Position numbers and translations under genes: made by a program | Notes under the pieces: generated by a model | The model's database searches: none | Seen by the model: only the letters and a program-made list of their open reading frames with translations | Told to the model about the DNA's origin: nothing | Shown here: positions 38,661-45,008 of the stretch, in pieces | Layout: each line of letters starts with the position of its first letter | How positions within the stretch are numbered: position 1 is the stretch's first letter | NCBI GenBank assembly: GCA_027310825.1 | Contig: DAIDAC010000005.1 | Span: forward strand, 1 to 64,000 | Direction: 5' to 3' | From: Candidatus Micrarchaeaceae archaeon | Lineage (GTDB): Archaea > Micrarchaeota > Micrarchaeia > Micrarchaeales > Micrarchaeaceae | DNA: 64,000 nucleotides

Positions 38661-40760
38661 TTAAATGGCCTTCTCTTCTACAGGGGTGGCGATCGGCTTT
38701 GCAACCGGCTTTACAGTCGGTTGAGCTGTCGGTCCATACTTTGGCTTGAACACAGGGAAGTTTGCCACTGGCTTGCCTCCGTTGATTGGCATCGCAAAGT
38801 AGTCCTGCATGTCCGCGTATGTCTTCAAGAACAGAGGATCCTGCTCAAGCTTTTTCACATCGCGTATGTATTTGTCTGCGCGGTAGTTCCAGTTCGGGTT
38901 TACCTTTGCCCATTCCTTTGCAGGTATGCTGTACTGCTTCTGGATCTTGTCACGATAGACTTCTGGGAATACGTTGAATGTGCAGAACGGAAGCACTTGC
39001 CCGTCAGGCATTGCATAGTGGATGTCGCACTTCTCTACGCGATGTATGTCGTAGGTGTGTTCATCCTGGAAGTGCATCATTCCTAGGAACAGCGACTTGC
39101 TGTGCAGTGCACCCATTGCATCGAAGTTGTTCTTTAGGAATATGTTTGTAAGCATCTTTCCGAAGTTGAGAGACTTTGGCTGCTTCTCTTTGTCTACGAG
39201 CTTTGGCAGGTTCATGAGCGCCTTCATTGCGATTGCCTTTCGTGTTAGTCTGCCCTTGCCCTGCATCTCGTCTACTGCCCTTTGCAGTGTTTCGACAAGT
39301 CCAGCTGCGTCTACGAAGTCGGTGATCGGGATTACTTCATTGTCGTCGTCGAGGAACAGGTATGTTGCTGCTCCACATGCGAAGTGTATCGACAAATCGT
39401 ACTTGTATTCTCCTGTGAGCGCTTCTATGAACTTGTTAATTCCGCCGACATACGGCACAGAGAACCAGTGTTCCTTTCTTATCTTGCCGTTTGTCTGCTG
39501 TTCGATGAGCTTTATTGCTCCGGGTATCGTGATCCTCTGCTTTTCTCTCAAGCGAGTCGGCATTCTTCCTACCAGAGACACTGGCTGGAAGTTGACTGCC
39601 CTGATCACGTCCATGTTGTTGAGTGCAAAGTCTATGAGCGCTCCCATCTCGTGCTCGTTTATTCCCCTTATTACAGTAGGAACAAGCACCACTCCGATTC
39701 CTGCTTCTCTGCAAGCATCGAGAGCGTGTGGAACTTCCCAATAGTTCTTCGGGTTTGTCCTTGGGCTTACTCCGTCGCAGCTCATGTAAAGGGTTCCGCA
39801 TCCTGCGTCCTTTATCCCCTGAGCAAGCTTTCTGTCAAAGCCAAGGTTTATTCCTGTTGTGTTAAGTTGTATTTGGTCGAAGCCTGCCTTCTTCGCCCTT
39901 CTTATTACTTCGACTATCTCCGGGTGCATTGTCGGCTCTCCTCCTGTTATCTGGAGCGCGTTCGCCGGAATAGGCTTTGCAGACTTTAGATTTCTGAATA
40001 TCTTGTCAAGCTCGTCTACAGTCGGTTCGTAAATCGGCTCCCCTTCCTTTGCATAGAAGAAGCAGTACCAGCACGATAGGTGGCATCTGTTTGTGACTAC
40101 AACGTTGGCAAGTCCAGTGTGCGTCTTGTGCCGCTCGCAGATTCCGCAGTCGAATGGGCAGTTCTGTCCCTGGCCAAGGTAGTTAGGGTTGTCGAGACCT
40201 CTTCCGAAGTAGTTGTACCTCTTCATCTTTGTGTACATGTCATAGTCTTCCCAGTATTTCTCGAGGTTCCACTTGTGTTCTGGGCAGAACTTTCTGATCA
40301 TTACATTGTCTCCGTCTTTGTAAATAGTTCCCTGGATAATGAGCTTGCACTCCGGGCAAACCGTCATGGTCTGCTCGATTACAGGCATCTTTTCTATTTC
40401 TTCAATTGTTCTGTGATAAGGAGCAAATACAGGGTCTACAGCCAGGTTTGCGTTTGGATCGTCTTTTGTCTCTGGCCTTTTGCTGTTTACCTCTTCGAAT
40501 GCCACAGTCTTCTGCGCAACCTTGCTTCCACAACCGCAGGATTCCTCTCTTTCGGCTGCGCCTTTTCCGCAGCCACATCCTTCGCTTGCCTTTCCGCCGC
40601 CGCAGCAGTCATCGTCGCCGCCAGCTGAGGCTCCTCCGCCGCATCCGCAGCCTCCGCCACCACAGCCGCACGAATCCTCTACTTCTAGAGATCCTTTCTC
40701 TGCGCTAGCTTGTCCTTTTGCTTCGTTAATGCCACCAAAGTTGTGACTCTGACCTGTCAT
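38661..40760 (-). CDS. Tetraether-lipid-synthase-like radical SAM protein with Cys/Gly-rich N-terminus
   Basis: A 699-residue radical SAM enzyme resembling Tes (MJ0619 type), which joins two archaeol lipids through their tails to form membrane-spanning tetraethers. A rubredoxin-like zinc unit (Cys135, Cys138, Cys159, His162) is followed by CPFDCGIC (201-208) and the radical SAM motif CHLSCWYC (226-233), then LQITGGEPTMHP. Later Cys residues (HFACG, VEKCDIH, LPFCTFN) can bind auxiliary clusters. Unusual: residues 31-77 hold ten Cys among Gly repeats (CGCGGGGCGCGGG, DDDCCGGG, GCGCG, SCGCG). The Pro-rich tail is also extra. Family assignment is from motif order; activity is inference. Confidence 0.8.
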   Translation of the reverse strand: MTGQSHNFGGINEAKGQASAEKGSLEVEDSCGCGGGGCGCGGGASAGGDDDCCGGGKASEGCGCGKGAAEREESCGCGSKVAQKTVAFEEVNSKRPETKDDPNANLAVDPVFAPYHRTIEEIEKMPVIEQTMTVCPECKLIIQGTIYKDGDNVMIRKFCPEHKWNLEKYWEDYDMYTKMKRYNYFGRGLDNPNYLGQGQNCPFDCGICERHKTHTGLANVVVTNRCHLSCWYCFFYAKEGEPIYEPTVDELDKIFRNLKSAKPIPANALQITGGEPTMHPEIVEVIRRAKKAGFDQIQLNTTGINLGFDRKLAQGIKDAGCGTLYMSCDGVSPRTNPKNYWEVPHALDACREAGIGVVLVPTVIRGINEHEMGALIDFALNNMDVIRAVNFQPVSLVGRMPTRLREKQRITIPGAIKLIEQQTNGKIRKEHWFSVPYVGGINKFIEALTGEYKYDLSIHFACGAATYLFLDDDNEVIPITDFVDAAGLVETLQRAVDEMQGKGRLTRKAIAMKALMNLPKLVDKEKQPKSLNFGKMLTNIFLKNNFDAMGALHSKSLFLGMMHFQDEHTYDIHRVEKCDIHYAMPDGQVLPFCTFNVFPEVYRDKIQKQYSIPAKEWAKVNPNWNYRADKYIRDVKKLEQDPLFLKTYADMQDYFAMPINGGKPVANFPVFKPKYGPTAQPTVKPVAKPIATPVEEKAI

Positions 40761-40926
40761 AATTACACCCTCTAATATCGATAAAAGGGGGTTCCGATGT
40801 ATTTATATACTTTGGTGTGTTTCGCTTTACTGGCAGTAAATTTCTGTTTTTCTTCGACGATAACCCAGTTATAGAAACAGGTTAATCTATAAATAATAGA
40901 CGCAACATAAGCCGTATGGTGAAAGC

Positions 40927-41304
40927 ATGGCAACACCGGCAGCAAGGACAAGAACACCAGTTAAGACAGGAACAATCGGAAACAGGAAGGTATCAGATGA
41001 GATTACCGACTTCATAAGGAATGGAAAGGGCCAGGAGTCATTCGCAAGGTTCGCTGGCGAGATGGCGAGCATAGCTAATGGAGGAGCCACGCAAGACAGA
41101 TTAATCGCATTGAACTACACTATCGGAATGCTTTTCGACTCCGATGTTCTAAGAAGAGGAAGGGCCGAGCAGCTTTTCAACGAAGCTGGCAGAAGAGTTC
41201 CTCCGCAGTACAGAGCAAGGTTCGACCAGATAACGACTCCTATAATAATGAGGAACAGGAATGCGCTGCAGCCGCCGCAGGTCCAGCAGATGCAGAGGCG
41301 CTAA
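40927..41304 (+). CDS. Small hypothetical protein before the repeat protein
   Basis: Not recognised. 125 residues: a Thr/Arg/Pro-rich unstructured head (TPAARTRTPVKTG), a helical centre (RKVSDEITDFIRNGKG... FARFAGEMASIANGG) and a Gln/Arg-rich tail (PPQVQQMQRR). No membrane segment or cysteine. GGTGA lies 4 nt before ATG 40927, and a TATA-like CTATAAATA about 40 nt before. It ends 42 nt before the sixteen-repeat protein on the same strand, so the two may be partners, although an AT-rich element between them could start a separate transcript. Confidence 0.65.
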   Translation: MATPAARTRTPVKTGTIGNRKVSDEITDFIRNGKGQESFARFAGEMASIANGGATQDRLIALNYTIGMLFDSDVLRRGRAEQLFNEAGRRVPPQYRARFDQITTPIIMRNRNALQPPQVQQMQRR

Positions 41305-41346
41305 CAAATAAATACCAGTCCGGCAGAGCTTATATTTCGTGGAGCT

Positions 41347-44300
41347 ATGCCGCCAGAGAACACTGTGGATGGAGTTGTGCAGCAACAGGCTAGCCCCGCA
41401 GATAAACGTTCTGATCTCGGGGAGCGTCTTCTCAGAAAGGCACAGGAGCTTAGACAGGAAAGGCCTGCACCGCAGATAAGAAGAGGGAGAAGATGGACAC
41501 AAGCTGACATAGAGGCTCTAGATGCACAAGTGTTTGAAGAAGCGATAGAAAAGATAAAAGAGTATCACCAAAGAACAGGCAAGGTACCAATACTTGGGCT
41601 GGATGCTCGTCAACTTGTTGGAGGGAAGTTATTGCACAGACTGAACGGGGGGCGATACAAAGGCCAAGGAGTCTTTGATTTTGATGACGTGCTTTTGAAG
41701 GCGGGCATAGAAACAGGTTCAAACCGCGAGAGGTGGGCTTGTAAAGAGGGTTTGGAAGAAGGAATCAGGATCGTACAGAAGTTTGCTGCGGAGCACCACA
41801 AAAATCCTCCTGGGAGGTGGGACGTACGAAAGCTCGGTCTTGGCAAATTGATTTCCTATATAGATGCTGGCTTCTTCGAGAATGATGGCGTAACAAGCCT
41901 GCCCGGCCTTGTCGCCCGGGCTCATCTGATGGTAGGAAATATACCGCATGGAGAAGGCAAAGGATTTTGGTCGAGCATCGAAGGCTTTAACGAAGGCGTC
42001 AGGCAGATTAGAGAATTCGTAAAGACACACAGTGAACCGCCTTCGCGCACAACTATGCCGTGGATGAAAGTTTTCATCTCAAACCTTGATGCTCATGCTT
42101 ACACCGGAATGGGGATAAGGAGCTACAACGACCTGCTTAGATCGCTTGGCTTTAAGCCAGAAATGAAAAAGAAAGACTGGATTACAGATGAGGGTTTTGA
42201 CGAGGCAGTAAGAAGAACCGTCTCTTTTTACAAACAGCAGGGATATCGACCATCAGAAAAGGAAGCGCGTGAGAAGTTGGAGATCGGCAGTTTCATCAGT
42301 GCAGTCTGCGGTGGTAGATTTTCGAAGATAGGCGCCGGAACCTATGACGGATTTTTGGACTATGTCGACATGGTGTTCTGGAACAGCAACGATGGCTATG
42401 CAACTGCAAGCGATCGCATCAGGAATTTCAACATAATTAATAGGAGAGCGCCGACCGTAGAGGAATGTAATATTTCACTTGGACTAACGGAGTTCTTAGA
42501 GTTGCTTGACCACGGAGCGTTCAAGCAGAAAGGTGCAATGAATTTTGATGGATTCATCAAATCGCTGTATCTACCTAAGATAAAGATGGGCTTCTGGTCC
42601 AGCGATGCAGGGCTTGAAGAAGGCGTTAAGGCAATACAGAGGTTTGCTGCCAGAAATGGAAGGCCGCCAACGACCGGAGAAGCAGTCGGAGAACTCAAAC
42701 TACAAGGTTTGCTTGCCGCAATCAGCAAAGGCAGGTTCGATGCGCTTGGGGTTACCTCTTTCACTCCGCTGATAAAACATGCGGGACTAGAACCGACTAT
42801 GAAGCAGTGGCGGTACTGGGGCACAGATGAAGGATACGAACGGGCTTGCAAAACGATACGAGACTTCCATAGGAAGAATGGTAGAGCTCCGTGGGTCACA
42901 GAACTCAGAGACGAGCTTGGACTTGGAACTTTTGTGCTTTACCAGATTTGGAGCGGCGGGCTGAGGAGCAAAGGAATCACGAGCTATGCTGATTTGCTAA
43001 AGACGCTTGGTCTTCCGATTGCAAGAATGCCATTGAGATTCTGGGAAACTGAACAAGGACTAAATGAAGCTGTCGCAAGAGTAAACAAATTCGATCAAGA
43101 AAAAGGGTACACGCCAACGATACAGGAGACGCACCATGAACTGCAACTCGGAGGTTTCTTGAGAAACGTTTATCTCGGAAAATTCGCAAAGTACCACATA
43201 AAGAGCTACCCGGCATTCTTAACCTACGCCGGCCAGCCAATCTACAAGCAAAGCATGGGGCTGTGGAGAAGAAAAGAGGGATTGGTGAAGGGTGCAAAGC
43301 TCATCAAAGAGTTCTTTGATAAAAATCAGAGAGTGCCGACTGCAAAAGAGATACACAGCGTATTGCACATCGGCGCATTGCTGTCAAACATCTACTGGCT
43401 TAAACTGAAACGTTTCGGTGTGCTGAATTACTTTGATCTTTTGAAATATGCCGGAGTACCTCTTCCTGAAAGAAATCCATTCTACACGACAAAGGAAGGT
43501 CTTGCTGAAGGAGTAAAGAAACTGCAGGAGTTCGATCGCCAACGTGGAAAACCTCCGCTAGAAAGGGAGGCGCGCGAACTGCTCAAGCTTGGGCCGCTCA
43601 TTTCTGCTGTACAGAGAGGACTTTTCAAAGATCTTGGAGTCGGCAAATATTCACAACTGCTCCTTTATGGGGGAATGAGGGCAAAGCCAAAGCACAGAAA
43701 CCATTGGGGAACAGATGCAGGTTTCGACGAAGCCATAAAAAAGATGAAAGAATTTGCAGCTGCAAACGGCAGGCCGCCGCGCTTTGTGGAAATCCAGCAT
43801 GAGCTGCATCTGTCCGGTTTTTCTAGGCATCTCTACATGGGAACATTCAAGCAGAAAGGAGTGGAAAATTACAATGAGCTTTTGGCTTCACTCGGATACA
43901 AAGCAGGGATAGGAAAGAAAGGGGATTGGAAAACGAAGAAAGGTTTGGATAGAGGAGTCCAGATATTGAAGGAGTTCAAAGCAAAGAATGGGAGAGCGCC
44001 GTTCTGGGTTGAAGCTGCTGCACTTCCAGGAATCAATGCGTTGGTTTGCCAGATAAGAGAAGGCAACCATCAAGGATTAAAGAATTATCATGACCTGCTG
44101 AAGCTTGCCGGGCTTGCAGAGCCAGTAAGAGAAACTTGGCTCAGCGAATCAAGATTTAGGGCAGGAATAGAAAAAATCAGAGAGTTTAGCGTAAAGAATA
44201 ATAGAGCTCCGAAGGGACACGAAATTGCGAAAGAGTTGAAGCTGGAAGGTTTGTTGAGAGCAGTGAACGCAGGTGCTTTCGCATCGGAAGGCATACACAA

Positions 44301-45006
44301 CCTTGCAGATCTGGTCAGCTATTCTGGTGTGCTTCCTGTTGGCACGATGGGTTTTTGGAAAACAAGCAAAGCGTATGAAGAGGCTACAAGAAGAGTAAAA
44401 GAATTTGATCAGAAAAACCATAGACCGCCGACGCACGTGGAGGCGAAAAAGGAATTGGGGCTCGATAATTTTGTAAGATGGCTCCATGCCGGGGTATTCA
44501 AAGCAAGAGGAGTGACTGGATATACCACATTCCTGAAAAATATCGGGCTAGAGCCTGGTTACATAGGCCGTGGGTTCTGGTTGACTGAAGAAGGGCTAAA
44601 TTACGGATTAGCGAAGGTCAGGGAGTTCACCCAAAAGCAGGGCAGGCCGCCAAGGCACACCGAAGCTGGCGAAGAGCTCGGCCTCGGAGGACTGCTGAAC
44701 CAAATAAAAGCAGGAGTATTCAAAGAACAAAAAGTCACGAATTACCTGGAGTTCATACAAAAAGCGACAGGCATTGTGATAAATCATGGAAAATGGAGGA
44801 CAGAGGTCGGATTGAAGGAAGGCGCGATGAAGGTTGTTGACTTCATAAAAGAGAACCGGAGACCGCCAAATTCCAGGGAAATGCAGAAGGAAATAGGGCT
44901 AAGCGGATTGATGTTTAGTATAAGCCGGGGTGTGTTCCAAGCGCAAGGAGTAACTTCTCCCGCAGGATTTATAGAATACGCACAGCGTCTTTCTGAACAG
45001 AAATAA
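41347..45006 (+). CDS. Giant tandem-repeat protein, sixteen ~72-residue repeats
   Basis: A 1219-residue protein. Residues 1-49 are disordered and basic (ERPAPQIRRGRR). Residues 50-1219 divide without remainder into sixteen repeats, starting at 50, 130, 208, 278, 345, 417, 491, 566, 640, 712, 787, 861, 931, 1004, 1078 and 1150. Each reads W-x-T-x-E-G-L, a helix ending x-E-F, then N-G-R-x-P-P, E-A-x-x-E-L-G-L-x-x-L-L, G-x-F-x-x-x-G-V, and S-Y-x-x-L-L-x-x-A-G. The repeats are diverged, with no identical DNA copies. There is no signal peptide, membrane helix or catalytic motif. The pattern resembles homing-endonuclease-associated repeats (short DNA-binding helices); DNA or RNA binding is inferred, not shown. 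Confidence 0.85.
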   Translation: MPPENTVDGVVQQQASPADKRSDLGERLLRKAQELRQERPAPQIRRGRRWTQADIEALDAQVFEEAIEKIKEYHQRTGKVPILGLDARQLVGGKLLHRLNGGRYKGQGVFDFDDVLLKAGIETGSNRERWACKEGLEEGIRIVQKFAAEHHKNPPGRWDVRKLGLGKLISYIDAGFFENDGVTSLPGLVARAHLMVGNIPHGEGKGFWSSIEGFNEGVRQIREFVKTHSEPPSRTTMPWMKVFISNLDAHAYTGMGIRSYNDLLRSLGFKPEMKKKDWITDEGFDEAVRRTVSFYKQQGYRPSEKEAREKLEIGSFISAVCGGRFSKIGAGTYDGFLDYVDMVFWNSNDGYATASDRIRNFNIINRRAPTVEECNISLGLTEFLELLDHGAFKQKGAMNFDGFIKSLYLPKIKMGFWSSDAGLEEGVKAIQRFAARNGRPPTTGEAVGELKLQGLLAAISKGRFDALGVTSFTPLIKHAGLEPTMKQWRYWGTDEGYERACKTIRDFHRKNGRAPWVTELRDELGLGTFVLYQIWSGGLRSKGITSYADLLKTLGLPIARMPLRFWETEQGLNEAVARVNKFDQEKGYTPTIQETHHELQLGGFLRNVYLGKFAKYHIKSYPAFLTYAGQPIYKQSMGLWRRKEGLVKGAKLIKEFFDKNQRVPTAKEIHSVLHIGALLSNIYWLKLKRFGVLNYFDLLKYAGVPLPERNPFYTTKEGLAEGVKKLQEFDRQRGKPPLEREARELLKLGPLISAVQRGLFKDLGVGKYSQLLLYGGMRAKPKHRNHWGTDAGFDEAIKKMKEFAAANGRPPRFVEIQHELHLSGFSRHLYMGTFKQKGVENYNELLASLGYKAGIGKKGDWKTKKGLDRGVQILKEFKAKNGRAPFWVEAAALPGINALVCQIREGNHQGLKNYHDLLKLAGLAEPVRETWLSESRFRAGIEKIREFSVKNNRAPKGHEIAKELKLEGLLRAVNAGAFASEGIHNLADLVSYSGVLPVGTMGFWKTSKAYEEATRRVKEFDQKNHRPPTHVEAKKELGLDNFVRWLHAGVFKARGVTGYTTFLKNIGLEPGYIGRGFWLTEEGLNYGLAKVREFTQKQGRPPRHTEAGEELGLGGLLNQIKAGVFKEQKVTNYLEFIQKATGIVINHGKWRTEVGLKEGAMKVVDFIKENRRPPNSREMQKEIGLSGLMFSISRGVFQAQGVTSPAGFIEYAQRLSEQK
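41494..45003 (+). repeat. Array of sixteen protein-level repeats (210-240 bp units)
   Basis: In-frame units of 67-80 codons fill the gene from residue 50 to the last residue. Most begin with Trp (the tenth with FYT). The first two are longer or looser, while 6-16 fit the consensus best. Units differ too much in DNA to be recent copies, so the array is old and maintained. Repeat twelve has an altered middle (AALPGINAL for ELGLGGL). Confidence 0.9.
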
Positions 45007-45008
45007 AA

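Follow-up and report, generated by a model that had tools for sequence, protein, structure and literature searches.

A nuclease-free array of sixteen lengthened HNH_repeat-related units, probably DNA-binding, in a Candidatus Micrarchaeaceae archaeon

The 64,000-nucleotide stretch considered here (the window; contig DAIDAC010000005.1, positions 1 to 64,000, of the Candidatus Micrarchaeaceae archaeon assembly GCA_027310825.1) encodes P0001, a 1219-residue protein best read as a nuclease-free array whose sixteen units are diverged and lengthened relatives of HNH_repeat, the homing endonuclease associated repeat of Pfam (PF18780). P0001 most likely binds DNA inside the cell, a reading in which we place good but far from complete confidence. 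The array, its kinship to HNH_repeat, the order of its helices, its basic charge and the fusion partners of the repeat in relatives are computational results. From the nuclease-linked kin, the fusions to helicase, ATPase, helix-turn-helix (HTH) and methyltransferase partners and the basic charge, we infer that DNA is the probable ligand; the contact surfaces and biological role set out below are put forward conditionally.

An earlier note, made from the sequence alone, had given the open reading frame, its length and its coordinates exactly, and its division of the protein into a 49-residue tail and sixteen repeats running to the last residue held, as leave-one-out models uphold each repeat. 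In the following list, the gene rests on open reading frame and translation, the tail on sequence, all repeats on the repeat profile and leave-one-out scores, and repeats 6 to 9 on predicted structure as well.

41347..45006, + strand: P0001 repeat protein, 1219 residues
41347..41493, + strand: N-terminal tail (residues 1-49), with the basic stretch IRRGRR at its end
41494..41733, + strand: repeat 1 (residues 50-129)
41734..41967, + strand: repeat 2 (residues 130-207)
41968..42177, + strand: repeat 3 (residues 208-277)
42178..42378, + strand: repeat 4 (residues 278-344)
42379..42594, + strand: repeat 5 (residues 345-416)
42595..42816, + strand: repeat 6 (residues 417-490)
42817..43041, + strand: repeat 7 (residues 491-565)
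43042..43263, + strand: repeat 8 (residues 566-639)
43264..43482, + strand: repeat 9 (residues 640-712)
43483..43704, + strand: repeat 10 (residues 713-786)
43705..43926, + strand: repeat 11 (residues 787-860)
43927..44136, + strand: repeat 12 (residues 861-930)
44137..44355, + strand: repeat 13 (residues 931-1003)
44356..44577, + strand: repeat 14 (residues 1004-1077)
44578..44793, + strand: repeat 15 (residues 1078-1149)
44794..45003, + strand: repeat 16 (residues 1150-1219)

When the hand-cut repeats are turned into a profile, it recovers all sixteen of them at 68-93 bits; as this is circular, leave-one-out scoring was taken as the fair test. Against a model of the other fifteen, each repeat reaches 36.5-78.1 bits, while residue shuffles (100 per repeat) reach a maximum of 8.1 bits against the same models. 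The autocorrelation of the protein peaks at 74 and 147. Repeat length varies between 67 and 80 residues, about 73 being typical, rather than standing constant at about 72 as first proposed. The motif description that accompanied this proposal was right in outline but idealised: Trp stands at the start of 15 of the 16 repeats, a turn of the N-x-R-x-P type is present in 11 and the literal NGRxP in 4, and the second Pro of the turn is the only invariant one. Any two repeats share 30% identity on average and 43% at most, without a trend by distance along the array, and Tandem Repeats Finder found no DNA-level tandem repeat in the gene. Together these results indicate an old, diverged array and speak against a recent or artefactual duplication; recent duplication at DNA level was rejected on the second of them. 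The basic character of the protein was borne out (isoelectric point 9.66, net charge +50), with Lys or Arg at alignment columns 12, 13, 15 and 23 in 9, 10, 10 and 13 of the 16 repeats, respectively. In line with the earlier note, Pfam and NCBIfam detect no catalytic domain, including no HNH or other nuclease domain, and no membrane-like stretch is present (19-residue hydropathy, maximum 1.18).

Kinship to HNH_repeat was assessed at two levels. First, the whole of P0001 scores 33.2 bits (E 6.9e-8), a sum over copies, against PF18780, a 54-position Pfam model with a curated cut-off of 26 bits. P0001 likewise passes the Pfam cut-offs for the pseudomurein-binding repeat and the LexA DNA-binding domain, again additively, and it is because such additive matches are weak that an independent profile-profile test was made. 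This second level relied on two alignments: A1, the sixteen P0001 repeats, and A4, thirty canonical HNH_repeats of haloarchaeal, Spirochaetaceae metagenome-assembled genome and Bacillus plasmid origin. The sources of A4 were genomes found with alignment A3, one Bacillus plasmid, and the haloarchaeal tblastn matches of P0002, a paralogue of P0001 that itself scores 107.8 bits against PF18780 (one unit matched over positions 7-53 of 54) and leads to haloarchaeal plasmid proteins annotated as HNH endonuclease (6e-7). With hhalign, A1 matches A4 at 95.0% probability (E 4e-8, score 38.9, 52 of 55 columns), and the controls score at most 15.4 (300 column shuffles of A4) and 14.6 (reversed A4). An HTH array of related proteins yields 17% over 19 columns, and PeiP pseudomurein-binding units 57% over 27 columns, restricted to helix 1 and the turn. 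Since the A4 match runs end to end and the PeiP and HTH matches are partial, HNH_repeat is the family that accounts for the unit in full.

A profile-profile comparison of the kind proposed in the earlier note was thus run, and the alignment of all sixteen repeats matched HNH_repeat over the full unit. The helicase-associated domain (PF03457), which had been anticipated as well, is not listed for P0001, and P0002 reaches 17.7 bits for a cut-off of 28.4. A length of 67-80 residues is not close to the 54-position model; Pfam defines families by profile, not by length. The P0001 unit is therefore read as a lengthened variant or sister type of HNH_repeat and is not called a canonical member here. 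The curated Pfam match, the hhalign result controlled by shuffling and reversal, and the same predicted helix order support the suspected relationship of P0001 repeats to homing-endonuclease-associated repeats, as a distant one.

AlphaFold2 was applied to residues 417-712, corresponding to four units, and predicts four helices per unit, of 18-6-8-(3)-7 residues (mean predicted local distance difference test score, pLDDT, 87.8; predicted template modelling score, pTM, 0.48). A canonical haloarchaeal array is predicted with helices of 15-7-8-7 residues (pLDDT 82.5, pTM 0.36). The single clear difference between the two models is the G-x-F-x-x-x-G-V insert between the third and the last helix, found in P0001 only. 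In BFVD, the best match of both models is one and the same 466-residue Siphoviridae protein (E 3.6e-4 for P0001 and 1.9e-10 for the canonical array), and seven of the eight top viral matches of the canonical model also figure in the list of P0001. Library E-values between 0.001 and 10 are weak one by one, and the overlap of the lists is their informative part. Pithovirus helicases also match the P0001 model (prob 0.99 and 0.96, among viral predicted structures), and weak PDB matches to LexA, sigma-factor and DsrC structures are taken as hints only.

The lengthened unit, hereafter the long-type repeat, is not confined to P0001. The host genome spans 15 contigs and about 0.98 Mb, and its gene content suggests a reduced archaeon, probably of the DPANN group. 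It contains 40 matches to the repeat, on two contigs and in four genes (P0001-P0004). P0002 (2128 residues, contig C9, L014:6528-12914) combines N-terminal HTH-like units, about seventeen linker-interrupted long-type repeats and a C-terminal class I methyltransferase domain of the UbiE/Methyltransf_11 type; it may be the family's most interesting member. P0003 has 384 residues, and P0004 has 267 residues and three repeats. Across 295 genomes of the phylum, 11 have a match to the long-type repeat at E 1e-4, including two from the same genus, which is a patchy distribution. Bare arrays exist in relatives, with four repeats in each of P0005 and P0006 and seven at L055. Three other proteins associate the repeat with further domains: P0007, from a relative of another family, carries a P-loop ATPase and two long-type repeats, and genome G232 encodes both a superfamily 2 (SF2) helicase (ResIII, Helicase_C) with one C-terminal repeat (L053:1459-3618) and a protein in which five or six closely similar HTH_38 units follow a single repeat (L054:2366-3673). 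The match at L058, in a sigma-factor-like protein, is probably not a repeat. Among the relatives inspected, the long-type repeat was never seen fused to a nuclease, and a search of 60 relatives brought up no orthologue of P0001. Viral contigs scanned with alignment A3 and P0001 revealed no relative, tblastn returned nothing for P0002 among phage records or for P0001 among plasmids, and PADLOC indicated no defence family worth following. A Hef-like helicase gene adjoins P0003 and P0004 in this genome and P0007 in the other family (L015:11517-17009, L018:1264-5462), suggesting that this location is recurrent for repeat proteins.

A plausible mode of action can be outlined from these features. 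Each unit would be a small four-helix domain that opens with a long helix ending in the conserved basic N-x-R-x-P turn. Two short helices would follow in a helix-turn-helix-like arrangement, then the G-x-F-x-x-x-G-V insert that is specific to the lineage and, to close the unit, a helix with the motif SYxxLLxxAG. Consecutive units may lie along the DNA duplex, with the conserved Lys and Arg columns 12, 13, 15 and 23 of helix 1 and the N-x-R-x-P turn likely contacting the backbone, and variable columns 42, 43, 45 and 46 around the third helix as candidates for base contacts. Sixteen units would give a long footprint, and the array could grip a long stretch of DNA as a roadblock, a regulator or an architectural protein. 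A bolder extension, which we hold to be rather unlikely, is that long-type repeats form a modular DNA-reading code, in which the variable residues of the third helix would set base preference, sixteen units would specify one very long site, and the repeat would serve this archaeal lineage as a shared targeting part, fused to helicase, ATPase, methyltransferase and HTH modules; sequence-specific reading by P0001 is speculation.

Several observations weigh against DNA binding by an HNH_repeat-related array. Taken individually, the repeats reach E 0.015 at best against Pfam, the score of the whole protein being additive, and a profile of canonical repeats alone barely finds P0001 (8.1 bits, E 0.0013). 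Repeats 1, 2, 4, 5 and 8 are barely basic (net charge -2 to +1). Individual units are predicted confidently and their mutual placement is not, as the pTM of 0.48 indicates, so the model does not extend its support to the regular superhelix expected by the earlier note. Foldseek and the PDB profile and fold searches returned no significant solved-structure match for P0001. Moreover, none of the neighbouring genes in the window hints at a pathway, and our literature search turned up no DNA-binding experiment published for any HNH_repeat.

The little net charge of some repeats would also suit a protein scaffold, with the repeats binding other proteins as HEAT or TPR arrays do and their basic charge being coincidental. 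Helical arrays are frequently scaffolds, and P0001 is devoid of a catalytic domain; nevertheless, the kinship to nuclease-associated repeats, the fusion pattern and the recurrence of Lys and Arg at fixed columns of the repeat make this explanation unlikely.

We regard as quite unlikely that the array wraps single- or double-stranded RNA in a PPR- or mTERF-like fashion. P0001 is basic and all-helical, and its neighbour nop5 is an RNA-modification gene; SF2 helicase and ATPase partners would suit RNA too, but HTH units are among the fusion partners as well, and DNA nucleases among those of the canonical family. Furthermore, nop5 adjoins tes in relatives without P0001, and the neighbourhood of nop5 and P0001 is therefore accidental. 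The genes surrounding P0001 are as follows.

38664-40760, minus strand: tes, a radical S-adenosylmethionine (SAM) gene
40927..41304, + strand: P0009, a 125-residue orphan gene, 42 bases upstream of P0001
45012-45956, minus strand: nop5, an RNA-modification gene

In many relatives, nop5 and tes are neighbours on the same strand, separated according to listed coordinates by about 130 (G006), 142 (G005), 241 (G010), 321 (G003), 347 (G043), about 365 (G039), 840 (G008), 1519 (G012) and 1803 (G009) bases. Here the gap is about 4250 bases (40761-45008) and holds P0009 and P0001, both on the opposite strand, and the wider gaps of G012 and G009 are filled by other, unrelated frames. As it is short or differently filled in relatives, the nop5-tes junction is a spot where genes turn over. 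The GC content of the insert (0.472) is that of the window (0.475), hence no sign of very recent arrival; a foreign base composition was rejected on these values. P0009, which has no match in Pfam or in the genomes of 40 relatives, is probably an operon partner of P0001.

Insertion at this variable junction, the patchy distribution of the repeat and the frequent presence of a C-terminal HNH domain in canonical arrays would all be compatible with P0001 being what remains, decaying or domesticated, of a selfish HNH homing endonuclease after loss of its nuclease. Such an origin seems very improbable, given a frame intact over 1219 codons, sixteen diverged units, no nuclease remnant and no nuclease-fused long-type repeat among the relatives examined; as it concerns origin, it would remain compatible with a present role in DNA binding. 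Finally, the above-cut-off PF09373 match in P0001 (31.5 bits) and the weak PeiP-unit profile match (57% in hhalign) would point to a cell-surface or wall-binding array, the least credible reading of all, for this likeness spans 27 columns covering helix 1 and the N-x-R-x-P turn, PeiP units differ beyond them, the HNH_repeat match covers the full unit instead, and membership of PF09373 was rejected on this partial match and on the lack of a membrane-like stretch.

HNH_repeat is named in Pfam yet almost absent from the literature searched. Bare arrays of it are already known, and what is new is the lengthened unit, the sixteen-unit array and a lineage-specific family with its fusions. The presence of the long-type unit beside helicase, ATPase, methyltransferase and HTH arrays in sister proteins and relatives suggests a portable targeting part, and thus more than an accessory of homing endonucleases. 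If DNA is read unit by unit, programmable binding would gain a scaffold of a new kind in these repeats; otherwise P0001 would be a large protein with an architectural or barrier role, encoded by a genome that measures only some 1 Mb.

TALE-likes, pTERF and MOON are DNA-binding tandem-repeat proteins made of long arrays of a short unit (PMC11417379), with which P0001 shares a works-like analogy only, as their sequences are unrelated and their folds are other. P0001 was rejected as a TALE-like array, since a four-helix unit is predicted in place of two-helix units with a base-specifying loop. The main text of the same survey names no HNH or homing repeats (PMC11417379), and a single paper mentions PF18780, in passing, where it tabulates repeat families that were modelled (PMC8078820). 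Within its own genome, P0001 has long-type units in common with P0002 and is devoid of the HTH-like units and methyltransferase domain of this paralogue. A long uninterrupted array is not without precedent, as shown by WP_259608181.1 of a Bacillus subtilis plasmid (NZ_CP103996.1), a bare array like P0001, with fourteen HNH_repeats over about 825 residues (733 bits) and no nuclease; its units are canonical, short and far more mutually alike than those of P0001, and its host is a bacterial plasmid. Three adjoining bare HNH_repeat proteins of fourteen, six and four units are encoded on a Bacillus subtilis plasmid (L061, 4722-8421 and 10621-11373), in a neighbourhood that also has a site-specific integrase and an IS256 transposase. 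In haloarchaea, canonical arrays precede HNH nucleases, as in the HNH endonuclease WP_317176023.1 of a Halomontanus rarus plasmid (PF18780). Proteins of this type and P0001 have in common the helix order, the helix 1 and xGRxP turn, the F-G-(x)-S-W/Y-x-x-A/L-L-x-x-A-G end and an end-to-end profile match, whereas P0001 differs by its units of 67-80 residues, its G-x-F-x-x-x-G-V segment, the lack of a nuclease and an array of sixteen units instead of five to seven.

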